Below, piece after piece: positions 29,264-46,190 of a stretch of 64,000 nucleotides of DNA. Below the pieces are notes generated by a model. The model had not been told where the DNA came from. It ran no database searches and was given only the letters and a program-made list of their open reading frames with translations. Each line of letters opens with the position of its first letter. Position 1 is the first letter of the stretch. Source of the DNA: Flavivirga amylovorans. Its GTDB lineage: Bacteria > Bacteroidota > Bacteroidia > Flavobacteriales > Flavobacteriaceae. Made by a program: the position numbers and the translations under genes. The DNA lies in NCBI RefSeq assembly GCF_030540875.1, contig NZ_JAUOEM010000005.1, positions 62,001 to 126,000 on the forward strand, read 5' to 3'.

Positions 29264-29709
29264 TCATTAGACCATTTAAAGTCTGTTAAGCCATTAATGT
29301 TGTTACATTAATTTTGGGTTATTCTAAGGTTAATAAAGTTACCTACTTATTAAGGATGCTAATACAGTGTTAATAATACCTGTAGTCTAGTACTTACTAA
29401 AGTCAAAGTTTGATAAATTCAATGCTTTACGGTGGACAAAAGAGGGACATCATCGGATTTTTTTTTTTAATAAGCCTGATACTTATACATTCGTTATAAT
29501 CAACTAAATATTAATATGATAACCAACCTCTTTACCTCTCTTGTAGTCTTTTTCTCGTTTATACTAAATCATCGTGCTCAAACTTTAAGAAGGTTTAGAA
29601 CAGTTCTTTTGAGTTCTAATACAGCAAAATCCCCCTATTTGTATTAGGTTTTACTGAAATCTAAATAGAAAACATATTCGCTATTATTTAAATCACGTTA
29701 TTTTTTTAT
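29264..29709. other. Gap between divergent PhoX-like operon and surface-protein locus
   Basis: AT-rich with no convincing gene. It carries one copy of the GGACA direct-repeat motif (29434-29449) and a run of nine or more T residues at 29458-29468. The distance from the motif to the next start codon (29710) is about 260 bases. Confidence 0.55.
29434..29449 (+). promoter_or_regulatory. GGACA direct-repeat motif, copy 1
   Basis: GGACAAAAGAGGGACA, preceded by T, is a variant of the exact 16-mer at 30369-30384 and 44150-44165. The half-site (T)GGACA repeats with an 11-base period, about one helical turn. Confidence 0.45.
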
Positions 29710-30354
29710 ATGAAGAAACAATTACTAATTTCTCTCATTTTTTTAATCAGTTTATCCTGTTATAGTCAGCAACTATATATGGAGTATGGTTCTACGGTAT
29801 CTTCTTTTGATTATGAAAACTCTCAAGGACAGCCATTAGATAATTTACTATCAAAATCTAAATCATATTTTGGTATGGGTTACAGACATCCTATTAATAA
29901 TGCAAAAACTTTGTTCTTAACAGCCGGTGCTACCTATAGTAGTTATGGAGCAGTAGGGAGTGAGCCTAGTGTAGATAATTATTTTGCCTGGGATGTTAGT
30001 TACCTAGGTATAAAAGCAGGCGTTGATGCTAAATTATTTCAATTAAGAGACCTTACTTTTTTCTTAAATGGCTCGGTAGCTTCCGAGTTTTTAATACGGG
30101 GAAATCAAACCATAAATAATGATGTGTTTAATTTAGTAGGAGAAGACGAATTTAATAATAACATTCTTTTTTTTAGAGCAGGAGTTAGTATGCAATATCC
30201 CATTTCCAGTAGTACAGCAATTTTTGCAGGGTATACCTATGGAAAATCAATATTAATTAGTAGTGGTGAAAGTGAGGAAAAATTAAAATTGAACGCTCAC
30301 CAGTTTGGAATCGGGTTTATTATTAACCTACCAACATGTTATTGCGATTTTTAG
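29710..30354 (+). CDS. Outer-membrane beta-barrel protein
   Basis: A 214-residue exported protein. The signal peptide ends near SCYSQ; the rest alternates amphipathic strands of an eight-stranded-type barrel (YMEYGSTVSSF, YFGMGYRHPI, LFLTAGATYSSYG, YLGIKAGVDAKLF, LTFFLNGSVASEF, ILFFRAGVSMQYP, AIFAGYTYGKS). It ends with a terminal strand HQFGIGFIINL and then a short PTCYCDF tail, so the very last residue is aromatic, as BAM substrates often are. It opens a run of five plus-strand exported-protein genes, with the next start 92 bases downstream. Function unknown; it could be a porin or an anchor for neighbours. Confidence 0.82.
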   Translation: MKKQLLISLIFLISLSCYSQQLYMEYGSTVSSFDYENSQGQPLDNLLSKSKSYFGMGYRHPINNAKTLFLTAGATYSSYGAVGSEPSVDNYFAWDVSYLGIKAGVDAKLFQLRDLTFFLNGSVASEFLIRGNQTINNDVFNLVGEDEFNNNILFFRAGVSMQYPISSSTAIFAGYTYGKSILISSGESEEKLKLNAHQFGIGFIINLPTCYCDF

Positions 30355-30368
30355 ATAGTTTGTAATAT

Positions 30369-30384
30369 GGACAAATGGTGGACA
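30369..30384 (+). promoter_or_regulatory. GGACA direct-repeat motif, copy 2
   Basis: GGACAAATGGTGGACA, with half-sites 11 bases apart, 62 bases before the ATG at 30447. Identical 16-mer at 44150-44165. The position suggests an activator site just upstream of a promoter. Confidence 0.5.
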
Positions 30385-30446
30385 TCCTATTTTAGTATTA
30401 GTATTTATTATAGTTTAGATAAAAAAGAAATCTGGAGAATTAAAAT

Positions 30447-30983
30447 ATGAATATAAAACTAACCCAAAAGCATGTCTTTTTTCTATTAGCAATTTGTTTT
30501 GTGCATTCAATTAAAGCACAGCAAAAAGCAGATAGCAATTCGTACAAAATTATAAGATCCAATTTAGGAGCAGGAGGCACATCAAAAACAATGTTTACTT
30601 CAAAAGGATCATATGTTGTCAGCCAAAGTATAGGTCAATCTAGCGTTATTGGAACGTATTCCAATAATGGCTATTACTTAAGACAAGGCTATCAACAACC
30701 ATCAAGCAGCATAAAAGTTGTAAAAAAATCAAGTACTAATAATTTATCAGCAGTAGTTCATCCAAATCCTTTTGGGCAATCGGTTTTGATATCCTTTACC
30801 GAAAGTATGACCAAAACCATTTCTGTTTTAGTATATGATATAAGTGGAAAACTTATTTATTCCAGAGCATTCCCCCCATCAAAAGATCTCGATTTAGATC
30901 TAAGTCATATTTCTAACGGATCCTATCTTTTAAAAGCTATTTCCAACGGGAAATTGTTTAATGCAAAACTCATTAAAATATAA
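30447..30983 (+). CDS. Small exported protein with T9SS type A sorting domain
   Basis: A 178-residue secreted protein. The signal peptide ends near SIKAQ. The middle has SYVVSQSIGQSSVIGTYS and YYLRQGYQQP, a short conserved block seen upstream of fibre-like genes in Flavobacteriaceae. The C-terminal 75 residues form a T9SS type A sorting domain: VVHPNPFGQSVLISF, ISVLVYDISGKLIYSR and FNAKLIKI. It is expected to be exported by SecYEG and then carried across the outer membrane by T9SS. The next gene begins 40 bases later, so it is probably first in a four-gene transcript. Function unknown. Confidence 0.88.
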   Translation: MNIKLTQKHVFFLLAICFVHSIKAQQKADSNSYKIIRSNLGAGGTSKTMFTSKGSYVVSQSIGQSSVIGTYSNNGYYLRQGYQQPSSSIKVVKKSSTNNLSAVVHPNPFGQSVLISFTESMTKTISVLVYDISGKLIYSRAFPPSKDLDLDLSHISNGSYLLKAISNGKLFNAKLIKI

Positions 30984-31023
30984 TTATAAATAAAAATATT
31001 TCGCATCAAAACCAACCAGAACT

Positions 31024-33288
31024 ATGAAACGTATTTTTACTCAATTATTATTTCTCCTTTTTATTTTAAACGTATCAGCGCAAACCGATGGTATTAGCTA
31101 CCAAGCCGTTATTATTGGGCCAGATGTATTAGAATTGCCAGGAGTAGACTCTGAAGGGAATTATCTGCCAAGCACTACTGTAGCTATTCGTTTTGTGATT
31201 TTTGATTCTGGAAACGAGGTTGAGTTTGAGGAAGTTCAAGTAACGACTACAGATGAATTTGGAAGAATCAACCTAATAATAGGAGCTGTTGAACATGACA
31301 ACTTCGAGAAAATCAATTGGGATGGTACTGCTAAAGATTTAGCAGTTGAAATAGATTTTGAAGGCGGCAATAATTTTGTGGATATGAGTAGAGAGGTACT
31401 TACGTTTGTACCTTATGCTTACCATAGGAATATTACAGCAACAGGAACACTAGATGTTGATGATGACACCTTTTTAAATAGAGAACTAACTGTTGATGGC
31501 CCAACAACCTTAAACAGTACATTATCTGTAAATGGAGGTAACGCTACAACATTAACGGGAGATTTAACGGTAGATGGTACAACAAACCTTAACGGTACAT
31601 TAGATGTCAATAACCAAAATACAACTAATTTATCAGGCGCATTAAATGTGGGGGTAGCAACTGGTGGATTTGATGCTTTGGCACCTACATTACTTAACGG
31701 TACATTAGATGTTATTGGTAAAACTACAGTTGCCGATTTTGAAGCGACAGGTGAGGCTTCATTTGCTAATTTAGAGGCCAATACATTAAAAGTTAATGAT
31801 ACCACCAGACTATTTGGAATGCTGGAAGTTGATGCCATAAGACAAATAAAATTAAGATCGAGTGTTTCAACTGGAGATATTACTTATAATAATGCTACAC
31901 CATCTAAAGTCACTGGGGATGACCCAGGTCTTAGTATTGACAATTACCCAGTATTAGTAGAAGGAAGTAATCAAGGTATTGCTATTAAAGTGATAGGTAA
32001 TAGAAGAAATGGAAATAATTTCGTGTCTTTTTGGGATGATGGTACGGACATGATGTGGGGACGTATTGAAGGTGAAATAAAAAGTGAATATGAAAATAAT
32101 GCAGACTATCTATTTGATCAAAGCTCATTAGAGTATGATATATACGAAGCTGAAATTGATCGTAATTTTGCTATAGCTGACGCCGCAATTGGCGCTTTAC
32201 AAGTTATTAAAGCGGCTACAGATTTTAGAGGCTGCTTAGGTATAGGAGGTTGTTTAGCGTCTCCTGGACCAGCCGATATAGCATTTGCAGCTGCTGAAGT
32301 TATTTCTGACGGTATTCAGGTTGGTTATGCACAAGATGCTCTTAATCGTGCCAGAGGCTATAAAGTTACTTACGATCAAAACAAAGATGAATTTGTAGGC
32401 GTATCATATGCATCTGGAGCCGGGGATTATGCAGAGTATTTATTAAGAGAACATATAAATGAAGAAATGACTTATGGTGACATTGTTGGTGTTACAGGAG
32501 GCAAAATATCTAAAAATACGATCAATGCTGAACGTTTTATGGTTGTTTCTTATAAACCAATAGTTTTAGGTAATATGCCACAACCAAGTGAAGAAGCTAA
32601 TTATGAGAAAGTTGCTTTTATGGGCCAAGTACCAGTTAAGGTGTTCGGAAAGGTAAATGTAGGAGATTATATTATTCCTAGTGGAAATAATGATGGCATA
32701 GGTAAAGCGGTTGCACCGTCTAAAATAGCAGCGAATCAAATTAAAGACATTGTTGGAACTGCTTGGACAAACAGCAATAATAGCTTAGGGTTTAATTTAG
32801 TAAATGTGGCCGTTGGATTAAACAGAAACGATAATAATATAATCGTTGAAAGGTTGGCGCAAAAAGTGGAGGCACAGGCAGTAGAAATTCAGGATTTAAA
32901 AAAACAAATAACAGCTATTCATGAGATGCTTTCAAACCCTGGAAACGCTAATGCTTTAGTTTCAAAAACATCACATGAACATCAATCACACACAGAGCAT
33001 GAAACAAGTACGGATGATGACCATTATGATGATAGAAAGTACGAGATTATAGATACAGATGAAGGAGAGATTGTTTATTGGGAAGTGACTCGCGAAGATT
33101 TTGAGAAAGGTTTGAAAATGGCAGAAGAACAAATGCGTATAGATGGTGTTGATATTGAAAACAATTTTTTATGGAAAAAATTAAAGAACGACTCAGCCTA
33201 TAAAGAACGATTGTTGACGCAATTGAAATCAAAATTAGATAACCAATTTCATTATCATAAGGGAGTTGATAAAAAAGGAGGTCACTAA
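31024..33288 (+). CDS. Fibre-like exported protein with peptidase G2-like domain
   Basis: A 754-residue exported protein; the signal peptide ends near NVSAQ. Residues about 20-130 form a beta-domain with ISYQAVI, common at the start of Bacteroidota tail-fibre-like proteins. Residues about 140-260 are short beta repeats (TTLTGDLTVDGTTNLNGTLDV). A helical stretch is at about 350-440. Residues about 455-600 (GDYAEYLLREH, GDIVGVTGGKIS, MGQVPVKVFGKVNVGDYIIPSG) resemble the intramolecular-chaperone peptidase G2 domain of phage fibres. A coiled coil (about 620-645) and a His/Asp-rich, charged C-terminus follow. No T9SS tail is evident. Probably a trimeric fibre; the G2 assignment needs a profile search. 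Confidence 0.75.
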   Translation: MKRIFTQLLFLLFILNVSAQTDGISYQAVIIGPDVLELPGVDSEGNYLPSTTVAIRFVIFDSGNEVEFEEVQVTTTDEFGRINLIIGAVEHDNFEKINWDGTAKDLAVEIDFEGGNNFVDMSREVLTFVPYAYHRNITATGTLDVDDDTFLNRELTVDGPTTLNSTLSVNGGNATTLTGDLTVDGTTNLNGTLDVNNQNTTNLSGALNVGVATGGFDALAPTLLNGTLDVIGKTTVADFEATGEASFANLEANTLKVNDTTRLFGMLEVDAIRQIKLRSSVSTGDITYNNATPSKVTGDDPGLSIDNYPVLVEGSNQGIAIKVIGNRRNGNNFVSFWDDGTDMMWGRIEGEIKSEYENNADYLFDQSSLEYDIYEAEIDRNFAIADAAIGALQVIKAATDFRGCLGIGGCLASPGPADIAFAAAEVISDGIQVGYAQDALNRARGYKVTYDQNKDEFVGVSYASGAGDYAEYLLREHINEEMTYGDIVGVTGGKISKNTINAERFMVVSYKPIVLGNMPQPSEEANYEKVAFMGQVPVKVFGKVNVGDYIIPSGNNDGIGKAVAPSKIAANQIKDIVGTAWTNSNNSLGFNLVNVAVGLNRNDNNIIVERLAQKVEAQAVEIQDLKKQITAIHEMLSNPGNANALVSKTSHEHQSHTEHETSTDDDHYDDRKYEIIDTDEGEIVYWEVTREDFEKGLKMAEEQMRIDGVDIENNFLWKKLKNDSAYKERLLTQLKSKLDNQFHYHKGVDKKGGH

Positions 33289-33349
33289 GACTGAAAGAAG
33301 TTAACTATGAATACCAGTGTTTTAATCAATTAACTTTAATCTGTACTAC

Positions 33350-36300
33350 ATGTCATTTCACATAAACATCTTCCTTGATAATTTAATAGTAAAGAAACAA
33401 TTTGTGTTTTCTTTTGTGATATTACTGTTTGGAATATCATTTTCGGTAGCACAAACCACAGCAATACCAAATGATAACTTTGAAGACTACCTCGAAACTC
33501 ATGATGAAAATGGGGCGGTAGTAAATGTTGGAGATGCTACCAGTATGGGAGATGGGATTGCAGGCAATAATGCTGTTACTACTACAAGTATCTCAAATGT
33601 TTTATCTCTTAATGTTAGCAATTTAAATATATCTGACTTAACGGGAATTCAAGGTTTTGCAAGTTTAGAGACACTTATATGTAGTGGTAATAATTTGACG
33701 AGTATTGATGTTTCAAGTAATACGAATCTAAAATCTTTACTCTGTGGATCTAATCTCTTAACTGTATTGCAATTAGAGAACAATCCTGATTTAGAAACGC
33801 TTAATTGTTCTAATAATCAAATACAAAATTTAAACTTAGTAGATCCAGGGACTCAAACACCTTACAATCCATTATTGAAAAGCTTAACATGTTCAAGTAA
33901 TCAGTTGACAAGTATAGATGTTAGTAAGCATAATGATCTTAACTTATTAAATGTTTCAAAGAATAGATTAACAGGCGAGTTAATTGTAAGTAATAATTTG
34001 GATCTAGAGAATTTGTTTTGCGCTTCAAACCAAGTTACAATCTTGAATCTTTCAGCAAACACTGTGTTAAAGAATCTTGATGTATCAAATAATTTAATTT
34101 CTAACTTAGATTTAAGCACTATAAATACTCGTGCTTGTCCAGACCCACAAACCAATCCGTTAACGATTTGTCAAGGCACAAGTAATATTAATGTTTCTAA
34201 TAACCCATTAACTAATTTAAATATAGCAAATGGTTTTAACGATTTAATCTCAATATTTAATTCCGAGGATAACCCCGATTTATTCTGTATTCAAATAGAT
34301 AGTGGTTTTTCTGTGCCAACAGGTTGGACAAAAGATGATTGGACGTACTTTGGAGACACTATTTGTACAGATGAGCTTACTTATGTTCCTGATGATAATT
34401 TTGAGACTTATTTAGAAACTCATGATGAAAATGGCGTTGTTGTTCCTCTAGGTGATGCAAATAGTATGGGAGATGGTGTCGCTGATAACAATTTTGTAAC
34501 GACCACAAAAATTGAAAATGTTTTAGCACTTAATGTTCAGAGTAACAATATAGACGTGTTAACTGGTATTGAAGATTTTATAGCCTTACGAACTTTAGAT
34601 TGTAGTAACAATCAATTACAGCATTTGGATGTTAGTAATAATGGTGATTTAACGGGACTTAATTGTTCTAATAATACACTACCAACATTAGACATTAGCA
34701 GTAATATTGGATTAATAACTTTAAATTGTTCAGGCAATACGCTTGCTAACTTAGAATTAAATACGAATACAGCTTTAGTAACTTTAAACTGTTCGAGTAA
34801 CGTTTTGAGCAATTTAGATCTGAGTGCAAATACGTTATTAGACAATGTAGATTGCTCTTTCAATCAAATTGAAAATTTAAATGTAACCACTAACACGGCT
34901 TTAGTTTCTTTTTTATGTAATGATAATACCTTGTTAGCACTGAATGTTAAAAACGGAACGAATGTTAGTCGTCTCAATACTTTTAATGCAACAAATAATG
35001 TTGATCTAGTATGTATTGAAGTTGATAATGTGACATTTTCAGATAATAATTTAGGGTGGCAGAAAGATAATGGTACCGCAACTTATAATCTTAATTGCGG
35101 GACTTATGTACCAGATGATAATTTCGAAGATTATTTAGAAACTCATGATGCTAATGGAGCAATTGTTGCTCTTGGTGATGTAGCAAGCATGGGCGATGGT
35201 ATCGCTAACAATAATTTTGTAACGACGAATAAAATAAGGACAGTGCTTGGTCTTGATGTTCAAAGACTGGGTATTTCTGACTTAACTGGAATTCAGGATT
35301 TTATCGATTTACAAGATTTAAACTGTTCTAATAATGCACTAACCACTTTAAATTTAAATACAAATACAGCATTACAAACATTAGATTGTTCTACCAATCA
35401 AATTGAAAACTTAAATGTTGTGCCTAATATAGCGTTGGAAACAGTTATATGTAATGGCAATAGGTTATTGACGTTAAACGTGAAAAATGGTACTAATAAT
35501 GGTTTGCTTACCACCTTTAATGCGACCAATAACCCTAGTCTGTTTTGTATTAATGTTGATGATACAACCTATTCAGAAAATGAAGCAGGTTGGCAAAAAG
35601 ATGATACTATAGCTACTTATAGCACGGATTGTGAATTAAATCGTTTTACAGCCATACCAGATGATTTTTTTGAACAGGCCTTAATTGATTTAGGTTTAGA
35701 TTCTGGACCATTAGATAACCAGGTTTTAACAGCCAATATAGAACATGTATTAGTCTTAAATGTTAATAATAAACAAATTGAAGATTTAGAAGGTATAAAA
35801 GGGTTTTCATTATTACGAGAATTGGATTGTAGTAATAATTATTTAAATGATCTGGACGTCAGTGACATGGTGAATTTGGAAGCACTTTACTGTAGTTCAA
35901 ATTATTTTTTAACTAATAATACAGCAAATACGAATGGACTTCTTAATACGACAGGAACCAGTAATCTAAGAAAATTATTCTGTGCAAGTAATAATTTAGG
36001 AGATTTAGATACCTCACTCAATGTAAATCTAGAAGCGTTAGATTGTGCAGATAATAATTTAGATGTTTTAAATGTTACAGGAAATTCATTATTAAAGGAA
36101 CTTAATTGTTCAAATAATAATTTAACAGGTTTAGATATTAGTACTAACGTAACGTTAGAAGATGTTAATTGTGATAGTAATAAAATTTCCAATTTAAACA
36201 CTGCAACTCTAAACAATACAACCCTTGTCAAAATAAGTTGTGCGAGTAACGATTTATCGACATTGTTGATTGGTAATTATGTTGCATTAGTAGATTTAAA

Positions 36301-39166
36301 CTGTAGATCGAATTCTTTAACGCAACTTATTACAGGTGCTAATGTTGCTCTTGAGTTTTTGGATTTTACTGATAATCAAATATCAGATATCATACTAACC
36401 ACGAATACTAATTTGGTACAACTTTTGGCTGCACAAAATGAATTAACACAACTAAATATAGGAACAAATACGCTTTTAGAGAGTTTAGACTGTAGTTATA
36501 ACCAAATTAATCAACTTCTTGTTAATTCAGCACTTTCTTTGAGGTATTTATCATCTGCAAATAATCAACTTACCGATTTAGATTTAAGTAATAATTTAGA
36601 TTTAATAGATGTAAATGTTAGTTCTAATAGTTTATCTGGTTTACAATTATCAAATAATCTAAACCAATTAAAATCTTTCAACTGTAGCAGTAATATGCTA
36701 GATGATGGCATCGATTTAAGTACTATGGGCACTGGCACGTGTCCTACAGCGACTCCTAATATACAGGCTATTTGTCCAACCAATATAACTATCAATGTAT
36801 CAAACAACCAATTAGAGTTTTTGAATATTCAAAATGGGGTTAACAATCGTATTTTAAATTTTAATGCGACATTAAACGCCAACTTAAGTTGCATACAAGT
36901 AGATGATGTCAATGCAATTGGAGCAAGTTGGAAAAAAGATGCAACATCTGAATATAGCATGGATTGTCGTTTTGGTGAAACCTATGTGCCTGATGATAAT
37001 TTTGAACAAGCTCTAATTACTTTAGGTTACGATGTAGGCCCTTTAAATGATTACGTACCAACAGCAAACATTGAAATACTTACAGTTTTAGATGTTAGCG
37101 GAAATAATATTTTGGATTTAACTGGAATTGAGGATTTTGAAGCACTTCTGAATTTAAATGTTTCAAATAATGCGCTTACAACTTTAGATTTAAGTAAACA
37201 TGTAGATTTAACAACGCTTGATGTTTCAAATAATAGCTTATCAGATTTAGACTTGAGTGATAATACGGCTCTAATTACGATAAATTGTTCCGATAATTTG
37301 TTAACAACCTTAGATTTAACAGCAAATATTAATGTTACTAATTTAAATATAGCGAATAATAATTTTTCTGAATTTGTGCCAAGTAATATCCCTTCACTAC
37401 AAATTTTTAATTGTGATTCTAACCAGATAATCGATCTGGATTTTACAATGAACACTGGTTTAACCAGTTTAAGTTGTGCATTAAATGAATTGGAAAGTTT
37501 GAATATTAAAAATGGTCAGAATCCAAGTCTTACAAATTTAAATGCTCAAAATAATGTGGATTTAACATGTATCCAAACGGATACTGGAGCAGTTCCAGGC
37601 GGTGTTACCTGGATAAAAGATGCTACAACTCAATATGCGATTAACTGTCGTTTTGGAGAAACCTATGTTCCTGATGATGCTTTTGAAACCGCTTTAATAA
37701 ACTTTGGATATGATACAGGAGCTCTAGATGATTATGTACCAACGCGTACTATTAGTAATATCTCGTTTTTAGATATCAGTGAAAAAGGTATTTCAGATTT
37801 AACAGGAATTGAAGATTTTACAAGTCTTACAATATTAAATGTTGAAGAAAATGATATTGCAACTGTAGATTTAAATGCTAACGTGCTTTTGGTAAGCTTA
37901 AATGCGTCCAATAATGTACTTACTACAATCGATTTAATGGCGCTCACTGATTTGAGAGTATTAAATATTTCAAATAACGATTTGTCGCAAATTAACATAA
38001 ATTCAAATCTAAGTTTAAGAGAATTGAACGTTTCCAGCAATGCGTTAACTGCCCTAGATGTAAACGTGTTAGTTGATTTAGAAAAGTTAAATTGTTCGTC
38101 TAATTTACTCGATGCGTTAAACGTTACTTCTAATACTAAACTTATAGAACTATTTTGTCAATCTAATTTATTTATTCAAGATAGGTTGAATCTTCAAAAT
38201 GGGGCTAATGCTACTTTAAAACGATTCAGTGCTACAAATAACCCTGATCTCAGGTGTATTTTAGTTGATAATCCTTTCGAGGTCATTTCTAATGCAGGCG
38301 GCACTTATGATAATTGGTTTAAAGATATCTCAGCAAGTTATCAATCTATTTGCTCTGATGCGGATAATGATGGTATTGCAAATGTAGATGATCTTTGCCC
38401 CAATACACCATTTGGAGAACCTGTAGATTTATTTGGATGTCCATTTTTAAGTTTGCCAAATGATAACTTTACAGTTTTAATTACAGGAGAAACATGTTTA
38501 AATAATAACGACGGTAAAGTAAATATCACTACCAAAGAATTATATAATTACAAGGCTAATTTAACAAAAGATGGCTTTGATAGAGATTATAATTTCACGA
38601 ATGAAATAGATATTAAAAATTTACTAGCAGGAATGTATAGGCTCTGTATAACCGTTGAAGAGTGGCCTAATTATTTAAGGTGTTATGATGTTATAATCAA
38701 TCATCCAGAAAACTTAGAAGTAATAACAGGAAAAAGGAGTACCGGTAAAGAAGTCTCTTTTGAGATGTCAGGGAATTCGAGCTATAATGTAGATTTTAAT
38801 GGGTTTAAGTATACCACTAACGATTCTAAAATTACGTTGCAATTAGAGGAAGGATCAAATAGTATCAAAATTTCAACAGACTTAAAATGCCAAGGGATCC
38901 ATGAAGAAACTATTTTTATATCAGATAGCATGTTTGTATATCCAAATCCGTTTCAAAACGATGTTAATATTTATTTAGGAGATGCTGAGGAAAATATTGA
39001 AGTTAATATGTATTCATATCTGGGGCAGTTGGTATACTCTAAAAAAGTTGAAAATAGAAAAAGTAGACGTTTAAATATTGATACCAATAGATTCGCTTCA
39101 GGACTTTATACCGTATTTATTCAATCAAAAAAATCAGTATCCACTTTTAAAATTGTAAAAAAATGA
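33350..39166 (+). CDS. Giant leucine-rich-repeat surface protein with T9SS sorting domain
   Basis: A 1938-residue secreted protein; the signal peptide ends near SFSVAQ. It has six LRR modules, each starting with a cap like YVPDDNFEDYLETHD (starting near residues 37, 343, 583, 766, 1209 and 1437). Each continues with repeats of about 21 residues (LDCSNNQLQHLDVSNN) and ends at a Cys/Trp block such as CIEVDNVTF...WQKDN. The first three caps carry a SMGDGIANN insert; the last three carry GYDxGPLxDYVPT. A thrombospondin type 3-like calcium loop follows (DADNDGIANVDDLCPNTPFG, about 1668), then a beta domain and a T9SS type A domain (YPNPFQNDVNIYLG, about 1863). Probably an adhesin. It overlaps the next gene by four bases. 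Confidence 0.92.
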   Translation: MSFHINIFLDNLIVKKQFVFSFVILLFGISFSVAQTTAIPNDNFEDYLETHDENGAVVNVGDATSMGDGIAGNNAVTTTSISNVLSLNVSNLNISDLTGIQGFASLETLICSGNNLTSIDVSSNTNLKSLLCGSNLLTVLQLENNPDLETLNCSNNQIQNLNLVDPGTQTPYNPLLKSLTCSSNQLTSIDVSKHNDLNLLNVSKNRLTGELIVSNNLDLENLFCASNQVTILNLSANTVLKNLDVSNNLISNLDLSTINTRACPDPQTNPLTICQGTSNINVSNNPLTNLNIANGFNDLISIFNSEDNPDLFCIQIDSGFSVPTGWTKDDWTYFGDTICTDELTYVPDDNFETYLETHDENGVVVPLGDANSMGDGVADNNFVTTTKIENVLALNVQSNNIDVLTGIEDFIALRTLDCSNNQLQHLDVSNNGDLTGLNCSNNTLPTLDISSNIGLITLNCSGNTLANLELNTNTALVTLNCSSNVLSNLDLSANTLLDNVDCSFNQIENLNVTTNTALVSFLCNDNTLLALNVKNGTNVSRLNTFNATNNVDLVCIEVDNVTFSDNNLGWQKDNGTATYNLNCGTYVPDDNFEDYLETHDANGAIVALGDVASMGDGIANNNFVTTNKIRTVLGLDVQRLGISDLTGIQDFIDLQDLNCSNNALTTLNLNTNTALQTLDCSTNQIENLNVVPNIALETVICNGNRLLTLNVKNGTNNGLLTTFNATNNPSLFCINVDDTTYSENEAGWQKDDTIATYSTDCELNRFTAIPDDFFEQALIDLGLDSGPLDNQVLTANIEHVLVLNVNNKQIEDLEGIKGFSLLRELDCSNNYLNDLDVSDMVNLEALYCSSNYFLTNNTANTNGLLNTTGTSNLRKLFCASNNLGDLDTSLNVNLEALDCADNNLDVLNVTGNSLLKELNCSNNNLTGLDISTNVTLEDVNCDSNKISNLNTATLNNTTLVKISCASNDLSTLLIGNYVALVDLNCRSNSLTQLITGANVALEFLDFTDNQISDIILTTNTNLVQLLAAQNELTQLNIGTNTLLESLDCSYNQINQLLVNSALSLRYLSSANNQLTDLDLSNNLDLIDVNVSSNSLSGLQLSNNLNQLKSFNCSSNMLDDGIDLSTMGTGTCPTATPNIQAICPTNITINVSNNQLEFLNIQNGVNNRILNFNATLNANLSCIQVDDVNAIGASWKKDATSEYSMDCRFGETYVPDDNFEQALITLGYDVGPLNDYVPTANIEILTVLDVSGNNILDLTGIEDFEALLNLNVSNNALTTLDLSKHVDLTTLDVSNNSLSDLDLSDNTALITINCSDNLLTTLDLTANINVTNLNIANNNFSEFVPSNIPSLQIFNCDSNQIIDLDFTMNTGLTSLSCALNELESLNIKNGQNPSLTNLNAQNNVDLTCIQTDTGAVPGGVTWIKDATTQYAINCRFGETYVPDDAFETALINFGYDTGALDDYVPTRTISNISFLDISEKGISDLTGIEDFTSLTILNVEENDIATVDLNANVLLVSLNASNNVLTTIDLMALTDLRVLNISNNDLSQININSNLSLRELNVSSNALTALDVNVLVDLEKLNCSSNLLDALNVTSNTKLIELFCQSNLFIQDRLNLQNGANATLKRFSATNNPDLRCILVDNPFEVISNAGGTYDNWFKDISASYQSICSDADNDGIANVDDLCPNTPFGEPVDLFGCPFLSLPNDNFTVLITGETCLNNNDGKVNITTKELYNYKANLTKDGFDRDYNFTNEIDIKNLLAGMYRLCITVEEWPNYLRCYDVIINHPENLEVITGKRSTGKEVSFEMSGNSSYNVDFNGFKYTTNDSKITLQLEEGSNSIKISTDLKCQGIHEETIFISDSMFVYPNPFQNDVNIYLGDAEENIEVNMYSYLGQLVYSKKVENRKSRRLNIDTNRFASGLYTVFIQSKKSVSTFKIVKK

Positions 39167-39879
39167 GACCACTAGTTTATATACTCTGTTTAGCTTTTTT
39201 AACTTTAGGATGTAGTAAATCTTCTGATGATGGTGTCGATGAAGGACAAAACCCTGAAAACCCAGATGGTAATCCAAATCAAGGTGCTGAGTTAGCAGTT
39301 AATTTAGTATTCCCGCATAAAGATGGTCTGTGTAATTTAGGTACAGATATAACACCGACACAAAGCACTGTACTTTTTGAGTGGCAGGCAAGTGATATCG
39401 CTGAAAATTATACCATTGTTATTGAGGACTTAACAACAGGAACCATTATCCAAGCAGAAACCACTGAAGATAAAGTTCCAGTGACTATAAACCGAGCCAC
39501 ACCACATGCATGGTATGTAGAATCGAGTTCAGGGTCAAAATCAGAGAAAAGTGATACTTGGAAATTCTTTAACGCTGGGCCTGGTGTGCAAACCTATGCA
39601 CCTTTTCCAGCAGTTCTTGATGCCCCGGCAATGGCATTATCTATAAGTACAGCAAGTGTTACGTTGCAATGGACGGGGAGTGATGTTGATGACGATATTG
39701 TAGGGTATGATGTGTATTTAGGAACAAGTAATAATCCAAGCATACACGCTAGTGATTTGACTGCTAATGAATTAAATGTATCGGTAACTTCTGGAACTGT
39801 TTACTATTGGAAAATTGTTACAAAAGATGAAGTCGGTAATGCTTCGGATTCTGATATATTTCAATTTAGAGTCTTGTAG
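39163..39879 (+). CDS. Fibronectin-III-like lipoprotein
   Basis: A 238-residue lipoprotein: lipobox LTLGCSKS (Cys about residue 18), a Asp/Asn/Pro-rich linker, then two beta-sandwich domains (about 45-140 and 145-238). Each has fibronectin type III-like strands: TVLFEWQASDIAENYTIVIED and VTLQWTGSDVDDDIVGYDVYLG, ending in YYWKIVTKDEVGNASDS. The ATG overlaps the TGA of the LRR gene (ATGA), showing translational coupling, so it is very likely made together with that protein. It may anchor or display it. No T9SS tail; expected on the cell surface or in the periplasm. Confidence 0.85.
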   Translation: MRPLVYILCLAFLTLGCSKSSDDGVDEGQNPENPDGNPNQGAELAVNLVFPHKDGLCNLGTDITPTQSTVLFEWQASDIAENYTIVIEDLTTGTIIQAETTEDKVPVTINRATPHAWYVESSSGSKSEKSDTWKFFNAGPGVQTYAPFPAVLDAPAMALSISTASVTLQWTGSDVDDDIVGYDVYLGTSNNPSIHASDLTANELNVSVTSGTVYYWKIVTKDEVGNASDSDIFQFRVL

Positions 39880-39984
39880 TTGAAGTTTATTGCGACAATT
39901 TTAAATGAGGTGAAGGTATTAACTTAATTTTTAGATTTAGAAAAATGGAATAACTGTATATTTACATGATTATTTAATTTAACT

Positions 39985-41583
39985 ATGCAGCAAGGCTATT
40001 TACCGTTTCGAAATACGGGATATTTTTCTTCTTTAATCTGTGATTATTTGGATGAAAATCCTAACTTAAAACAGTTTTACAATCACTTCCCGACTTTAGG
40101 GAATTTTAAAACACAAATTGATGATAGGGCAGCTTCTAACCTTAGTTCTGAGTCGCAACGTAGTACATTAGTTTCAGTATTAAAAAAACAATATAAAAAT
40201 ATTGAAACCTCGGAATGGTCACTTCAAAATATCGAAAGTTTACAATCTAAGGATACATTTACTATAACAACGGGGCACCAACTTAATTTATTTACAGGAC
40301 CCTTATACTTTTTATATAAAATAGTTTCAGTCATAAATCTTTCAAAAGAATTAAAAGAAACATATCCAGAATATAATTTTGTACCCATTTATTGGATGGC
40401 TACAGAGGATCATGATTTTGATGAAATTAATTATTTCAATTTTAAAGGCAAGAAAGTACAGTGGAATAGAGAATCGCAAGGTGCCGTTGGAGAATTATCA
40501 TTAGAAGGGTTAGAAGACGTATTTAATTTATATTCAAAAGAATTAGGGACTAGTAAAAATGCTGATTATTTAAGAAAACTATTTAGTAACGCCTATCTAA
40601 ATCATACTAATTTAGCCGATGCCACACGATACTTAGCTAATGAGCTCTTTAAAGATCATGGTTTGGTTATTATAGATGCTAATGATACCGATTTAAAAAA
40701 GCAATTCATGCCTTTTATGGAAGATGAATTGTTGAATCAAACAGCTTTTAAATCTGTTTCAGAAACAAACAAGAACCTTTCTAAAGACTATAGTATTCAG
40801 GTTAATCCACGTGAAATTAATTTGTTTTATTTAAAAGAAAATTTACGAGAACGCATCGTTTTTGAAGATGATGTGTATAAAGTATTGAACACAGAAATTA
40901 ATTGGAGCAAGAACGATATACAAAAAGAACTCTCTGAACACCCTGAACGATTCTCCCCTAATGTCATTATGCGTCCTTTGTATCAGGAAGTTATATTGCC
41001 TAACCTATGTTATACAGGTGGAGGTGGAGAATTGGCTTATTGGTTTCAATTAAAACAGTTTTTTAATACGGTTAATGTCCCGTTTCCAATATTGTTGTTG
41101 CGTAACTCTGTTTTAATTAAAACAGAGCAGCAAGCTGATAAATTAAAAAAACTAAATATTTCTAATGAAGATATCTTTTTAAAACGAGATACTTTTATTA
41201 ATAAAAAAGTAAGAGAAATATCGAATATAAATATTGACTTTTCACCCCAAAAGATACATTTAGAAGCACAATTTAAGGAGTTATTCAAATTAGCTGAACA
41301 AACGGACAAATCTTTTGTAGGAGCCGTAAAAGCACAAGAAGTAAAACAACTAAAAGGCTTAGAAAATCTTGAAAAACGATTACTAAAGTCCCAAAAGAAA
41401 ACGTTAGCAGATCAAGTTTTCAGAATCACCGAGTTACAAGAACAATTATTTCCTAATAAAAGTTTACAAGAACGAAATGCTAATTTCTCTGAGTTTTATT
41501 TAGAATATGGTGAACGACTCATTCCTAATCTTATCAAAAATCTTGAACCTTTAAAAGGTGAGTTTTTAATACTAAATCTTTAA
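39985..41583 (+). CDS. bshC: Bacillithiol synthase, cysteine-adding enzyme
   Basis: A 532-residue member of the BshC family, which adds cysteine to glucosamine-malate to finish bacillithiol, a low-molecular-weight thiol used by Firmicutes and, by genome content, by many Bacteroidota. Seen: YFSSLICDYLDENPNLKQFY at the start, TGHQLNLFTGPLYFLYKI (Rossmann-type motif), YWMATEDHDFDEI, and a long coiled-coil C-terminal part (about 390-480, with EAQFKELFKLAEQ). The length is the usual one. BshA and BshB are not in the window, so the pathway must be completed elsewhere. The next gene starts only three bases after its stop; the two form an operon. Confidence 0.93.
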   Translation: MQQGYLPFRNTGYFSSLICDYLDENPNLKQFYNHFPTLGNFKTQIDDRAASNLSSESQRSTLVSVLKKQYKNIETSEWSLQNIESLQSKDTFTITTGHQLNLFTGPLYFLYKIVSVINLSKELKETYPEYNFVPIYWMATEDHDFDEINYFNFKGKKVQWNRESQGAVGELSLEGLEDVFNLYSKELGTSKNADYLRKLFSNAYLNHTNLADATRYLANELFKDHGLVIIDANDTDLKKQFMPFMEDELLNQTAFKSVSETNKNLSKDYSIQVNPREINLFYLKENLRERIVFEDDVYKVLNTEINWSKNDIQKELSEHPERFSPNVIMRPLYQEVILPNLCYTGGGGELAYWFQLKQFFNTVNVPFPILLLRNSVLIKTEQQADKLKKLNISNEDIFLKRDTFINKKVREISNINIDFSPQKIHLEAQFKELFKLAEQTDKSFVGAVKAQEVKQLKGLENLEKRLLKSQKKTLADQVFRITELQEQLFPNKSLQERNANFSEFYLEYGERLIPNLIKNLEPLKGEFLILNL

Positions 41584-41586
41584 TAC

Positions 41587-42957
41587 ATGCACAAAATTGA
41601 TATTGAATTGGTTGAAATGACAATGGATGTCATGAAGTATGCCATTGATAGACTTTCTGCGACACAAAGTAAAATAGGGAAGCCAAAAAGCGAAGCCAAA
41701 CTTAGAGAGCTAGTAGGTGAAACTATTACTGAGAAAGGCATCGGAGGTGAATACGCTTTTAATTTGTGGAAAAAACATTTAATGAAAGCAGTCGTGCCAA
41801 TAGACCACCCAAGACATTTAGCGTTTGTGCCTGCATCACCAACTAGAGCGTCCATCATGTTCGATTTGGTAACCTCTGCTTCTAGTATTCATGGGGCTTA
41901 TTGGATGGAAGGTGCTGGTGGTATTTTCTGTGAAAATGAAGCCATGAAATGGATTGTATCTCTAACAGGTTTGCCAGAAGGCGCATTTGGTGTCTTTACA
42001 AGTGGTGGTACGGCAGCAAATCTTTCGGCTATGGTTACTGCTCGGGAATATTGGAGGAAAAATGATGCTTTTAAAGGAGAAAAAGGACTTATTATTACTT
42101 CTATAGGAGCGCATTCTTCCATTAAAGCGATGGCGAAGGTTATAGATGTGGATGTGTTGTTGGTAGATTCGGAAGATAGATTGCATGGAGAAGAATTACA
42201 GCATACTATTAAAGGCTTAACCAAACAACAACGTAAACGGTTATTTTCTGTGGTAGCAACAGGAGGAACAACCAATGCTGGTATTATTGATGATTTAGAA
42301 GGTATTGCCAATATTTGCGAAAAAGAGAATTTATGGTTTCATGTGGATGCGGCCTATGGAGGAGGAGCCTTAGCGGCTGACTCTGTTAGGCATTTGTTCA
42401 ACGGTATCGAAAAAGCTGATAGTATTACCATAGATCCGCATAAATGGATGTTTTCTCCTTATGATTGCGGTGCTGTTATTTATAAAAACCCAGAATTAGC
42501 TAAGGAAGCACATTCGCAAGAAGGATCGTATCTCGATATTTTTAAAGATGAAGGCGCCAATGGTTTTAATCCAACCGATTACCAAATACAATTAACACGT
42601 CGTGTAAGAGGGTTGCCTTTATGGTTTTCATTAGCGACTCACGGAACAGACCGATATAAAGAAGCCGTAGAGCGAGGTATAGAACTGGCTCAAATAGCAG
42701 GTAGGATGATTACTGAAAATCCTCATGTAGAACTCGTTCGAGAGCCAAGCTTATCGTGTGTATTATATAGAAGAATAGGATGGAAGCCAGAAGATTACAC
42801 GAATTGGACGTATGAAAATCATCGAAAAGGTTTTGCATTAGTAACGCCAACAAAATGGAAAAATGGAAATCGTTACGAGACTGTTTCAAGATTCTGTTTT
42901 ATTAATCCAGATACCACAGGAAAAGACATTGAGATGATTTTGGATACTATGGCTTAA
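41587..42957 (+). CDS. Group II PLP-dependent amino-acid decarboxylase
   Basis: A 456-residue pyridoxal-phosphate enzyme of the glutamate/aromatic/diaminobutyrate decarboxylase group. Motifs: FTSGGTAANLSAMVTAR, HVDAAYGGGALAAD, and the PLP lysine Lys286 in TIDPHKWMFSPYDCG. The C-terminus includes RVRGLPLWFSLATHGTDRYKEAVERG. The substrate cannot be assigned safely: 2,4-diaminobutyrate, aspartate or an aromatic amino acid are all possible. It follows bshC by three bases, an arrangement that suggests co-expression, but a direct link to bacillithiol chemistry is unproven. Terminated by a long perfect hairpin. Confidence 0.9.
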   Translation: MHKIDIELVEMTMDVMKYAIDRLSATQSKIGKPKSEAKLRELVGETITEKGIGGEYAFNLWKKHLMKAVVPIDHPRHLAFVPASPTRASIMFDLVTSASSIHGAYWMEGAGGIFCENEAMKWIVSLTGLPEGAFGVFTSGGTAANLSAMVTAREYWRKNDAFKGEKGLIITSIGAHSSIKAMAKVIDVDVLLVDSEDRLHGEELQHTIKGLTKQQRKRLFSVVATGGTTNAGIIDDLEGIANICEKENLWFHVDAAYGGGALAADSVRHLFNGIEKADSITIDPHKWMFSPYDCGAVIYKNPELAKEAHSQEGSYLDIFKDEGANGFNPTDYQIQLTRRVRGLPLWFSLATHGTDRYKEAVERGIELAQIAGRMITENPHVELVREPSLSCVLYRRIGWKPEDYTNWTYENHRKGFALVTPTKWKNGNRYETVSRFCFINPDTTGKDIEMILDTMA

Positions 42958-42983
42958 AAATTAGTAAAAGAAATGGCATTTTT

Positions 42984-43029
42984 ACTTATAAAAAGACAAA
43001 CCTTTCTTTTGATTTGTCTTTTTATAAGT
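42984..43029. terminator. Bidirectional Rho-independent terminator
   Basis: Perfect 17-base arms, ACTTATAAAAAGACAAA and its complement, around a 12-base loop, with A-rich and T-rich flanks in the stem. It separates the converging PLP decarboxylase (+) and lipoprotein (-) genes and can serve both. Confidence 0.9.
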
Positions 43030-43047
43030 GTCAGAATATAAAATGTT

Positions 43048-43788
43048 TTATGGAATCACTACAGAAACGGCATCTACTGTATTGGGGTTCACATTTGGAA
43101 ATATGGTTTCCATAGTGTCTAAATCTTCATAACTATTAGAATAGAAATTATCACCATAAACACGAAACCAAAGCGTGTCGCCAGATTCATATCCGAGTGA
43201 TCTAAAAAAAGCTATAGAAAATGTTAAGTTGGCTGGGTTTCCTGTAGTTCCAATTATAGGAGAAAATTCTGTGTAGTTTGTATTACTAACATCATTGGCT
43301 TTGCCATAAAAAAGACGCATACGTTTTACTAATAAGTCTTCAGTAGATGGTCTGTTAACAGTAAGTACTATAAAATTGCCATTTATTACTGCCGATATAT
43401 TAGTAATTTCACTGTTAGATACCTGACCTAATTTAATAATGTTTCCAATAATGCTTATGTCATTGTTATTGTCTTTAAGTGAAACATCATATAGTTTATA
43501 GTCACCAAACCCTTCTTTCTCAAAAAGGAGTGTGTAATCTCCAAACGGTACATCTTTTAATACGAAAGACCCATCAGTATCAGATAAAGTACTTATTAAG
43601 GGTTCATAATCTTCAACAGTGATTTTCATTCCAGAATTATCAATATTATTTTGGTCATCGTCATAAAGTTCTACAATACCTACTATACTTCCTGCTAAGC
43701 TTTCAGTGGAACCATCGTCTTTGCTGCAAGAGATTATTATTAGAGATGTAAATAATAGTAATGTTTTTAAATAGTTTTGTGATTTCAT
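43048..43788 (-). CDS. Lipoprotein with carboxypeptidase-regulatory-like domain
   Basis: A 246-residue lipoprotein: lipobox IIISCSKDD (Cys about residue 21). Residues about 32-115 form a carboxypeptidase-regulatory-like beta-sandwich (GSIVGIVELYDDD, STLSDTDGSFVLKDVPFGDYTLLFEKEGF). A second beta domain (about 120-246) may be Ig- or Fn3-like (ISAVINGNFIVLTVNRPS, LWFRVYGDNFYSN). Function unknown; expected in the envelope. It lies alone downstream of a 530-base repeat-rich gap and converges on bshC/decarboxylase. Confidence 0.75.
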   Translation of the reverse strand: MKSQNYLKTLLLFTSLIIISCSKDDGSTESLAGSIVGIVELYDDDQNNIDNSGMKITVEDYEPLISTLSDTDGSFVLKDVPFGDYTLLFEKEGFGDYKLYDVSLKDNNNDISIIGNIIKLGQVSNSEITNISAVINGNFIVLTVNRPSTEDLLVKRMRLFYGKANDVSNTNYTEFSPIIGTTGNPANLTFSIAFFRSLGYESGDTLWFRVYGDNFYSNSYEDLDTMETIFPNVNPNTVDAVSVVIP

Positions 43789-43828
43789 GTTTTAGTTTTT
43801 TTTTATGATTATATTATTTGGGGTGTCA

Positions 43829-43975
43829 TTAATAAGCTAGATTTAAGTTTTCACAAGCGGATAAATCAATATCTTTTTTATTCAGAGTTGAAGATGTAAT
43901 CATACAACGACTGTTGTTACAATAGGAAATAATTAATCTAACTAAAATAGTGGGAATGCCAGTAGGTAAATCCAT
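43829..43975 (-). CDS. Candidate small protein (48 aa), Cys-containing
   Basis: A short frame not overlapping any gene encodes 48 residues from an ATG at 43973-43975, with A-rich upstream bases (GTGAAAAAGAAAAC). It starts MDLPTGIPTILVRLIISYC, has three Cys residues and ends ENLNLAY. The frame stays open upstream to 44047 without a better start, so it may instead be the tail of a decayed gene (NTNDDLVVKRGEKEN precedes the ATG). No family recognised; I would not call a function. Confidence 0.3.
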   Translation of the reverse strand: MDLPTGIPTILVRLIISYCNNSRCMITSSTLNKKDIDLSACENLNLAY

Positions 43976-44040
43976 GTTTTCTTTTTCACCTCGCTTTACA
44001 ACAAGATCATCGTTAGTGTTTAGTTTTTGTGACGTTTGCG

Positions 44041-44067
44041 ACTGGTTTTATCTGCAGTAAAACCAGT
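44041..44067. repeat. Perfect hairpin in the 43.8-44.3 kb gap
   Basis: ACTGGTTTTA and TAAAACCAGT, 10-base perfect arms around TCTGCAG. It lies just upstream of the small candidate frame. No T run follows on either strand, so an operator or an RNA structure is as likely as a terminator. Confidence 0.5.
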
Positions 44068-44149
44068 ACAAGACATTACAAGATTTTATTATCAAATTAA
44101 TGGCCACGTAAATATAATGTATTGATATTGCTAATCTTAATTTTGTAGA

Positions 44150-44165
44150 GGACAAATGGTGGACA
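44150..44165 (+). promoter_or_regulatory. GGACA direct-repeat motif, copy 3
   Basis: GGACAAATGGTGGACA, identical over 16 bases to copy 2 at 30369. It lies between the TPR/LuxR regulator gene (3' end 44319) and the lipoprotein gene (start 43788), both on the minus strand, so it is reversed relative to its neighbours. Confidence 0.4.
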
Positions 44166-44318: not shown

Positions 44319-46190
44319 TTAAATTTTTAAAATCAAGTCCTGTAAAGAATCTTCAGTAGAAATGTTTAATTTTTTTCTAAGTCTATAGCGTGCTTTTTTT
44401 ATGCCTTCTTGGGAAATATTAAGAATGTTGGCAATTTCTTTAGAGGACAAATTCATTTTTAATAAAGACATTAAACGTAATTCGTTTGGTGTAAGCTCAG
44501 GGAATTTTTGCTTTACATTGCTATTGAAATCTTTATGTACTTCTTGAAAGTATCGACTAAAATTTTCCCAGTTGTTATCATCCTTCAAGTCGAAATTTAT
44601 GGTTCTAATTAATTGATTGTATCCTTTTAGTCCGCTTTCTGAAGTTTTAAACGATTTGGCTTGTTGTTTTAAGCCTTCTAAGACTTCATTCTTTTTGGCA
44701 AGGTGCAAGGCGTGTGTTGTTAGTTCTTTCTTTTTAAACTCTAATTCAAGGTCTAATTTTTCTTTCTCAATTTTGCTATGTTTCAGCTTTTGCCGTACCG
44801 CATAAAACCCAATTAGAGACAACAAAAAACCGATGCCAAATAAAATTTTGTAAAGGTTATTTATTTCACCTTTCTGTTTCAAAAGATCTATTTCATTCTT
44901 TTGAAGTGTAATTTGCTGCTCTTTTTTTTCGGTTTCATGAATAGTACGCAACTCTTCAATTTGTTTTGATTTGGTTATATTAAAAACAGAGTCATTTATA
45001 GTGGCGAAATATTCATGGTCGGATAGTGCCTTTTTAAGATCATTTACATGTTTATTGGCTTTATATCTTAAATAATAAGCTTCGCTTAAATTTTCTTTTG
45101 ATCCGGTTTTTGAAGAAATCATAATGGATTCATCTAGATTTTTAAAAGCTTCATTAAACCTTTTCGTTTCAATAGCAACTTGGGCAATATGGTTAAGGTC
45201 TTTGGCTATGGCATTTTTATAATCTAATGTTCTATGAATGTCTAAGCCTTGATTTAAAAAATCAATAGCCGTGCTATATTGTTTTAATCGGGCATACGTA
45301 TTTCCTAAGTTAACAAGCGAGCTTCCTTCAATTTCTTTGTTTTTTATGTCGGTAGCCAACTTAAGAGCCGTTTCATAATATTGTTTTGCTAAGTCCAATT
45401 TTTGAAGTTTGACATAGGTGTCTCCTATATCGTTGGCTGCATAACTCTGGTATTGTAAATCTTTATAATCTTTATAAATGGAATAAGAATTTGTAGTATA
45501 ATCTAGAGCTTTGTCATAATTTCCTAATAAATATTCAATATTGCCAAGTTGCAATAAAGCATCCCCTTTTCTTAACTTATCTTTTTTTTGTTCGAAGAAA
45601 TTTAATGCCTTTAAAGTTTCGGTTAACGCTATATGATAGTTTCCAAGTTCTTTATGTATACCTCCTATAAGTTCGTATTCCGAACCAATAAGATTAAAGA
45701 GATTATGATTTGTACCTTCTATGCTATCTCTTTTTTTATAAATATTAATATTTTCATAAGCATAGCTTAAAGCTTTATCAAAATTCCCTAAGTTTTGCTC
45801 AAACGATGCCATAGAATGGTTAACAAATAATATACCTTTCATTGAATTCATTTGTTTAAATCCATTTAATGATTTTGTATAATAATGTCTGGCAGAATCC
45901 AATGCCCCACGATCTTTGTAGTAATCTGCAAAATGTAAATAACCCGATGCGATGCCTTTTTGGTAATTTAATTTTTTAGACAATTCATAGCTTCTTTTTG
46001 CATACTCAAAAGAAAGTTTAGAGTCCTTAAACATAAGTTCCTCATAAATAGTTCCCAGTATGGCAGCTTTAGTCTCATTTTCTGGTAACGTTTTAGATAA
46101 TTTAATAAGACTATCAATTTTCTTATCATTTTGAGATATTAAAAAACAAGGAATAAGTACAAGGAACAAGCAAAGTGTGAGGCGCTTCAT
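44319..46190 (-). CDS. TPR-containing transmembrane regulator with LuxR-type HTH
   Basis: A 623-residue sensor-regulator. The signal peptide ends near FLISQ. About ten TPR-like repeats follow (residues 30-420, for example ALNFFEQKKDKLRKGDALLQLGNIEYLLGNYDKALDY by pattern), exported to the periplasm. One TM helix (about 445-465, ILFGIGFLLSLIGFYAV) is followed by a cytoplasmic coiled coil (470-530) and a C-terminal LuxR/GerE-type helix-turn-helix (about 565-623, LTPNELRLMSLLKMNLSSKEIA). No kinase or receiver domain. This TPR/LuxR layout is common in Bacteroidota; its ligands and targets are unknown. Copies of the GGACA motif beside its gene and at the surface locus make that locus a candidate target. 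Confidence 0.9.
   Translation of the reverse strand: MKRLTLCLFLVLIPCFLISQNDKKIDSLIKLSKTLPENETKAAILGTIYEELMFKDSKLSFEYAKRSYELSKKLNYQKGIASGYLHFADYYKDRGALDSARHYYTKSLNGFKQMNSMKGILFVNHSMASFEQNLGNFDKALSYAYENINIYKKRDSIEGTNHNLFNLIGSEYELIGGIHKELGNYHIALTETLKALNFFEQKKDKLRKGDALLQLGNIEYLLGNYDKALDYTTNSYSIYKDYKDLQYQSYAANDIGDTYVKLQKLDLAKQYYETALKLATDIKNKEIEGSSLVNLGNTYARLKQYSTAIDFLNQGLDIHRTLDYKNAIAKDLNHIAQVAIETKRFNEAFKNLDESIMISSKTGSKENLSEAYYLRYKANKHVNDLKKALSDHEYFATINDSVFNITKSKQIEELRTIHETEKKEQQITLQKNEIDLLKQKGEINNLYKILFGIGFLLSLIGFYAVRQKLKHSKIEKEKLDLELEFKKKELTTHALHLAKKNEVLEGLKQQAKSFKTSESGLKGYNQLIRTINFDLKDDNNWENFSRYFQEVHKDFNSNVKQKFPELTPNELRLMSLLKMNLSSKEIANILNISQEGIKKARYRLRKKLNISTEDSLQDLILKI

Follow-up and report, generated by a model that had tools for sequence, protein, structure and literature searches.

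We analyzed a 64,000-nt stretch of the Flavivirga amylovorans genome (NZ_JAUOEM010000005.1, positions 62,001-126,000 of the forward strand; hereafter the window; whole genome 4,856,457 bases) that contains three copies of a short direct repeat, two at a surface-protein locus (genes g25-g28) and one near g33, a gene for a regulator with tetratricopeptide repeats (TPR) and a C-terminal LuxR-type helix-turn-helix (HTH). Most probably, the repeat serves g33 and related regulators as their operator, binding being predicted from the co-occurrence of sites with such regulators, a fixed spacing to the -7 promoter box, and a joint change of recognition helix and operator. At the level of sequence, association, geometry, and covariation are established. 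An initial annotation of the window had tied the surface-protein locus to the TPR/LuxR regulator via the repeat, an interpretation that appears largely right and that the same three features support, the co-occurrence being seen in relatives. In the following, G000 denotes the genome of the window, other G numbers comparison genomes, and L numbers stretches or loci from relatives or public genomes.

The repeat had been described as a 16-mer, GGACAAATGGTGGACA, identical at 30369-30384 and 44150-44165 and with a close variant at 29434-29449. These positions were confirmed, with three mismatches in the variant and all copies on the forward strand, and its recurrence indeed exceeds chance in 64 kb (three matches compared with a mean of 0.24 in shuffled sequence, three being reached in 0 of 100 shuffles). 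The exact 16-mer occurs twice in the whole 4.86 Mb genome, both times inside the window. Matches with three mismatches number 18 genome-wide, fewer than the 29 of a reversed control, so that the bare word does not by itself vouch for the variant copy, whereas its conservation does: comparison of orthologous upstream regions, as proposed in the initial annotation, shows, by alignment and scan, that copies 1 and 2 occupy corresponding positions in G001, G002, G006, and G011. These four are the genus members with close orthologs of g26 (76-88% identity), and their g33 orthologs are 97, 93, 92, and 56% identical, respectively.

TGGACA-N5-TGGACA, a direct repeat with an 11-bp period, is the better definition of the motif, and the three copies are members of one family. 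With at most one mismatch it matches 23 times in the genome (control, 13), five of these matches being intergenic: the three window copies, another that adjoins a further TPR-LuxR gene, and a weak one close to an open reading frame (ORF) resembling an IS200-type transposase. The other 18 are scattered in coding regions, a pattern that the initial annotation had named as speaking against its proposal, but they occur at control level and the intergenic ones are conserved. Counts alone would have misled, as GGACA-N6-GGACA is not enriched over 12 genus genomes (42 compared with 50 in the control, our own sum). The exact 16-mer was found in 111 stretches of 84,980 public species genomes, near the ~120 expected by chance for 257 Gb (own arithmetic); rarity is thus no argument, and the case rests on position and covariation. 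Three exact, intergenic copies lie inside 4.6 kb in Candidatus Odyssella (L050).

The 113 exact matches in these 111 public stretches comprise 53 that are intergenic by ORF prediction and 60 within ORFs. Of the intergenic matches, 16 have a g33-type HTH gene no more than 1.5 kb away, compared with 3 of the 60 in-ORF matches. HTH neighbors with E < 1e-20 accompany 15 intergenic matches and additionally L099, placed among the in-ORF matches by a spurious ORF (list read by hand). Pfam analysis of ten HTH neighbors identified TPR repeats in seven, one of which (L077) is a TPR histidine kinase, and a receiver plus GerE domain in three (L034, L043, L065). The latter share the helix KKNRYRLRKK and have the exact word 19 bp after the gene; the word hence also accompanies response regulators sharing the HTH. 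At L034 and L043 the next predicted gene on the far side is convergent, leaving no evident target promoter. A strict form of the motif, TGGACANNNGGTGGACA, gave 31 matches, distributed over 28 of the 299 family genomes searched, and its reversal 3 matches, each in a different genome. Of the strict matches, 25 are intergenic. A g33-type HTH gene is no more than 2 kb away from 18 of these, a g25 or g26 homolog no more than 1 kb away from 14, and both criteria combined account for all 25. Such neighbors were found for the six in-ORF matches at L223 only, where an HTH gene is 52 bp away and there is an overlapping predicted ORF.

Two tests were blind to the site itself. In one of them, a protein search for g25 homologs covered 199 family genomes and yielded 23 in 22 genomes. 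Each of the eight homologs with ≥70% identity is followed 17-32 bp downstream, in the g25-g26 gap, by a site that deviates from the motif at one position at most. At 54-58% identity (3/3), the gene order is g26-g25-g27 and the site precedes g26, facing a g33-type HTH gene, and at 43-49% (4/4) a variant site, TGGACAAAGTATGGACA, is positioned between the HTH gene and g26, with a second TGGACAAAGTATGGACA copy directly ahead of g26 at one of the four loci. Around seven of the remaining eight homologs (at most 41% identity; see below), inspection of 13-kb stretches revealed no TPR-type regulator whose HTH match is strong, and the eighth (G023) was covered for sites in 10 kb only. Over the 46 flanks the repeat matched 15 times, compared with an average of 0.14 matches over 179 permutations of the hexamer; the two permutations that exceeded one match, with 10 and 6, are register-shifted versions of the word itself, and spacings other than the 11-bp period gave 0-2 matches. 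The variant TGGACAAAGTATGGACA is also present in G000, where a second circuit (L329 3405-7227; G000:C7:669500-681500) has it between a TPR-LuxR gene and a divergent gene for a lipoprotein with a Thiol_cytolysin match; the G004 counterpart, L330, resembles this arrangement.

The other test relied on a model of an RNA leader that is found at loci ordered regulator, site, lipoprotein (see below). A search of 149 family genomes returned leaders at 18 places, some of them on both strands, from 14 genomes; six of the places were training loci. In 11 of the 12 non-training leaders, two directly repeated hexamers that agree at 5 or all 6 positions, with an 11-bp period, are located exactly 33 bp ahead of TAnnTTTG; agreement at 5 of 6 was attained by 63 of 1547 neighboring windows, in part because these include second sites. 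In the twelfth, L346, counting by eye puts TGGACA repeats 33 bp before TACATTCG. TGGACA within one mismatch was present in just 4 of the 12 new leaders and the permuted word GGTACA in 5, and it was this unexpected score that led us to compare regulator helix and operator word.

The first cases were three GGTACA leaders beside KKARQRLRKK regulators and TGGACA leaders beside KKARYRLRKK regulators, along with one Asn regulator beside GTGACA/GGGACA. In 397 family genomes, GGTACAANNNGGGTACA occurs at 24 places in 22 genomes and its reversal at 8 (own table count). Sixteen of the 24 places are intergenic, and at the 11 where a regulator was read within 700 bp, the residue is invariably Gln. With L351 added, Gln is found in 12 of 12 distinct regulators beside GGTACA-N5-GGTACA, seven of which are at loci new to the analysis (L356, L357, L359, L366, L369, L371, L375), and Tyr in all 28 regulators next to TGGACA and all six next to the GTAT variant. 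Six genomes hold both operator kinds beside matching regulators. The recognition-helix residue (Tyr or Gln) appears to go with the operator word (TGGACA or GGTACA).

The geometry of the sites is likewise constrained. A TAnnTTTG-like box is given as the sigma-A -7 consensus of flavobacteria in the available text of PMC9723704. Ahead of g26, site and box are separated by 26 or 36-37 bp; a separation of 36 bp also holds for 5 of 11 g25 cases (one mismatch) and for all three loci in which g26 comes first. In regulator-site-lipoprotein loci the distance amounts to 33 bp in 13 of 20 and to 65 or 66 bp in four that carry two sites ~33 bp apart, the remaining three being the window, L062, and L040. 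At divergent loci, the site is also 147-149 bp from the regulator gene. Sites often form phased arrays, and additional GGACA words keep the phase: 49 of 57 are at most 1 bp from a multiple of 11 (90 intergenic sites at 54 loci, the sites not being independent).

Table 1 Features of the window discussed in the text
Feature	Position	Strand	Remark
Copy 1, TGGACAAAAGAGGGACA	29433..29449	+	Site ahead of g25; conserved in G001, G002, G006, G011
Candidate -7 box TACATTCG	29486..29493	+	36 bp after copy 1
Small ORF	29516..29647	+	43 aa, hydrophobic N-terminus; between candidate copy-1 promoter and g25
g25	29710..30354	+	Exported protein, 214 aa; no Pfam match
Copy 2, TGGACAAATGGTGGACA	30368..30384	+	Site in g25-g26 gap; conserved in G001, G002, G006, G011
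Candidate -7 box TAGTTTAG	30411..30418	+	26 bp after copy 2
g26	30447..30983	+	178 aa; carries a sorting domain for type IX secretion (Por_Secre_tail)
g27	31024..33288	+	754 aa; no Pfam match; after g25-g26 in relatives too
g28	33350..39166	+	1938 aa; leucine-rich repeats and Por_Secre_tail
g32	43048..43788	-	246 aa, lipoprotein-like N-terminus; presumed copy-3 target, by position
ORF	43829..43975	-	48 aa; between RNA leader and g32
RNA hairpin	44023..44085	-	Homologous to the leader of regulator-site-lipoprotein loci
Degenerate -7 box TATATTTA	44109..44116	-	32 bp from copy 3
Copy 3, AGGACAAATGGTGGACA	44149..44165	+	Reads TGTCC toward g32
g33	44319..46190	-	TPR-LuxR regulator, 623 aa; TPR repeats, C-terminal GerE HTH

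The GerE match of g33 (residues 566-611) scores 27.2 bits, above the curated Pfam cut-off of 23.5, and several g33 relatives score below this cut-off. Hydrophobic stretches are found at residues 1-19 and ~443-467, the second one followed by basic residues. The recognition-helix sequence KKARYRLRKK is at residue 598, and the candidate specificity residue, Tyr602, is part of a helix spanning 594-607 in an AlphaFold2 model, which has a mean pLDDT (predicted local distance difference test) of 80.5 and low confidence around the ~443-467 stretch. The hydrophobic stretches and the model suggest a periplasmic TPR part and a cytoplasmic HTH. Pfam scans of g33 yielded no match to a nucleotide-binding (E 0.001), autoinducer-binding, or receiver domain, and a TPR_MalT match below cut-off. 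A structure search with the model adds little, returning TPR proteins only among the best 50 matches. TPR-LuxR genes come several to a genome in this family; 12 genomes of the same genus contain 9 to 16 g33 matches each, many of them to the HTH part only. Just past the 3′ end of g33, at 44214-44244, we noted a palindrome, GACCTGTCAGGTTTTCAAAACCTGACAGGTC, partly kept in relatives and either terminator-like or a repeated palindrome.

Copy 3 had been placed beside the regulator. It is indeed near g33, but it is situated 153 bp past the 3′ end of that gene and upstream of g32. Its reversed orientation was thought to weaken a promoter model; reversal is, in fact, the rule in relatives, where the regulator is followed by a site reading TGTCC toward its target and then by the lipoprotein gene. 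As in the window, these loci are often flanked by homologs of g30 or g31 and g34. Thiol_cytolysin matches were obtained for 9 of 20 scanned targets (L251, L256, L263, L264, L268, L329, L330, L040, L062), a set that is not a random draw and that includes g28 of the window and L331. In the Pfam scan, g32 had no Thiol_cytolysin match and a weak CarboxypepD_reg match below the curated cut-off. The degenerate -7 box (TATATTTA, at 32 bp) indicates that copy 3 may be fading, and the copy-3 promoter of the window genome looks partly decayed.

Between -7 box and start codon, the relatives (L251, L253, L255, L256, L258, L260, L263, L264, L267, L268, L270, L027, L117, L257, L265) share a conserved RNA hairpin. 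In an alignment of 15 sequences that excluded the window, 6 of 18 pairs have changed on both sides. In total, 12 cells with changes on both sides were counted, compared with a shuffled mean of 4.7 (0 of 500 shuffles reach 12) and at most 6 when the structure is slid, in a test that favors the structure because the latter was derived from the same alignment. Using model R1, built without the window, cmsearch recovers the window hairpin (28.0 bits, E 3.6e-4 over 64 kb); a stricter family search with the leader model had no match in the window genome at E 0.001. No Rfam family matched the leader: ten loci at gathering score gave one tRNA only, and three leader loci searched at E 1 a single sub-threshold microRNA match. 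In most leader sequences, a conserved CCACAAAAC run just before the start codon is complementary to one conserved hairpin arm, GUUUUGUGG, and the minimum-energy fold of L267 uses this pairing. As a conjecture, the leader might act as an RNA switch via the alternative GUUUUGUGG/CCACAAAAC pairing.

We propose the following sequence of events. The TPR part of g33, positioned in the periplasm, would sense something outside the cytoplasm, and g33-type HTH domains would bind in a head-to-tail row along a single face of the double helix, thereby activating the promoter of surface-protein genes. Via copies 1 and 2, g33 would serve g25-g26(-g27-g28). Through copy 3 it would serve g32, perhaps as a weakened remnant only, with a transcript that begins with the conserved RNA hairpin.

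Several observations weigh against this proposal or parts of it. Eight of the 23 g25 homologs, with at most 41% identity, are without a site in the scanned flanks (L292, one of these eight, gave no match in the first scan and entered in the flank scan only). In the window, g33 is 14 kb away from copies 1 and 2. Ten regulators of the set compared have no listed site within 400 bp, including one with Gln (L253) and two with Asn, and the HTH gene at L259 encodes just 175 aa, which leaves no room for a TPR part. As to covariation, 3 of the 12 Gln cases had themselves suggested the Tyr/Gln rule, and the GGTACA/Gln group forms one clade (support 97/93), so that the joint change may be one event. Exceptions are a Pedobacter Gln regulator beside TGGACA (L060) and a Ser regulator beside GGGACA/TGGACA (L064). 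Copy 3 has a degenerate -7 box, and no such site is present in the 4.8-kb loci of the g33 orthologs of G001, G002, G006, and G011. Activation, finally, is preferred over repression from site spacing alone.

A chance origin of the repeats was rejected by both site-blind tests, via g25 homologs and via leaders found by the RNA model. Some other, general DNA-binding protein might occupy the repeat, TPR-LuxR genes being merely common neighbors of surface genes. The 14 kb between the g25-g26 sites and g33 in the window genus would fit this explanation, as would several g25-g26 loci (e.g., L252, L261, L305, L306) without a nearby g33-type gene in the stretches examined. We nevertheless regard it as improbable, because the operator word shifts with the recognition helix of the neighboring regulator, six genomes hold both operator kinds beside matching regulators, and the G000 sites are few and local genome-wide. 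Even less credible, to the point of being very improbable, is an origin of the repeats as mobile-element ends or integrase arm sites, our first idea in view of GTGGACA clusters, which was dropped for Bacteroidota. Some exact copies do adjoin ORFs in Clostridia-type genomes (L022, L119) that resemble tyrosine integrases, and the weak intergenic G000 site is near the IS200-like ORF; yet Bacteroidota sites keep orthologous places and a fixed -7 spacing, and among the ORFs covered by the Pfam scan, none at a window copy was seen to be a transposase. A general type IX secretion motif was likewise dropped, as the 10-kb stretches around six distant g26 homologs (L170-L175) contain no site with at most one mismatch. 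Separately, GTGGACAAATGGTGGACA is found in Clostridia-type genomes near ORFs of one similarity cluster (L022, L119, L023, L036, L113, L123), where it perhaps represents attachment-site repeats.

Two further alternatives were considered. The sites could bind g33 but serve repression, or else only autoregulation or silencing, which would be in line with the 147-149 bp that separate the site from the regulator gene at divergent loci and with an orientation reversed relative to the target in regulator-site-lipoprotein loci. This is unlikely in our view, since 26, 33, or 36 bp separate the end of the site from the -7 box downstream of it and the two do not overlap, a position usual for activators. 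For copy 3 in particular, the chance is close to even, if slightly below, that it is a dead remnant of a lipoprotein promoter whose target was lost. The degenerate -7 box, the missing CCACAAAAC run ahead of the start codon, the 235 nt from hairpin to g32, and the absence of the site beside g33 orthologs in four relatives all point in this direction, whereas the 16-bp word has stayed intact and the hairpin retains its pairing, some of the pairs having changed.

At the g25-g28 locus, the 43-aa ORF ahead of g25 has an ATG at the aligned position in four relatives, whose frames were judged by eye. G001 carries two adjacent g27-like genes (L166 12137-16951), the window one.

With LuxR/NarL-family (GerE) regulators, g33 shares the C-terminal four-helix HTH and small half-sites; it differs from them in direct instead of inverted repeats, a hydrophobic stretch between sensor and HTH, and the lack of a receiver or autoinducer domain. 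MalT and other LAL regulators join a TPR-rich sensor to a LuxR HTH and bind asymmetric sites arranged as direct repeats. g33 is similar in both respects, but has no ATPase domain match and a predicted membrane anchor. In membrane-bound one-component activators of the ToxR/CadC type, a single polypeptide holds a sensor outside and a DNA-binding domain inside. The predicted layout of g33 is alike, although its HTH is LuxR-type and C-terminal and its sensor consists of TPR. No described target or operator for such TPR-LuxR regulators was found in the open-licence literature searched, and the g33 system appears to be a novel version of regulator and operator among systems with a LuxR-type HTH. The nine lipoprotein targets with Thiol_cytolysin matches, none of which is in the window, relate to CDC-like (CDCL) proteins of Bacteroidota as described in the accessible portions of PMC11169675 and PMC7527733. 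Text searches of these portions did not find LuxR or tetratricopeptide, and according to the accessible part of PMC11169675, Bacteroidota cousins of the cytolysin-domain lipoproteins kill bacteria.

More broadly, and tentatively, as a possibility that we would hold with some doubt, Bacteroidota may possess many insulated circuits of this kind that lead from outside to inside, each combining a membrane TPR sensor, a LuxR HTH with Tyr or Gln matched to TGGACA or GGTACA, repeats phased by helical turns at a set distance from the -7 box, and a neighboring target in the form of a surface lipoprotein or one with a pore-forming domain, plus possibly a GUUUUGUGG/CCACAAAAC RNA switch. The RNA leader would be a further element of such a circuit. 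An operator readable from sequence, together with a candidate specificity residue, would allow targets to be assigned to TPR-LuxR regulators without experiments. In the window the repeat would link surface display by type IX sorting to a membrane sensor and, in relatives, it would do so for cytolysin-domain lipoproteins.

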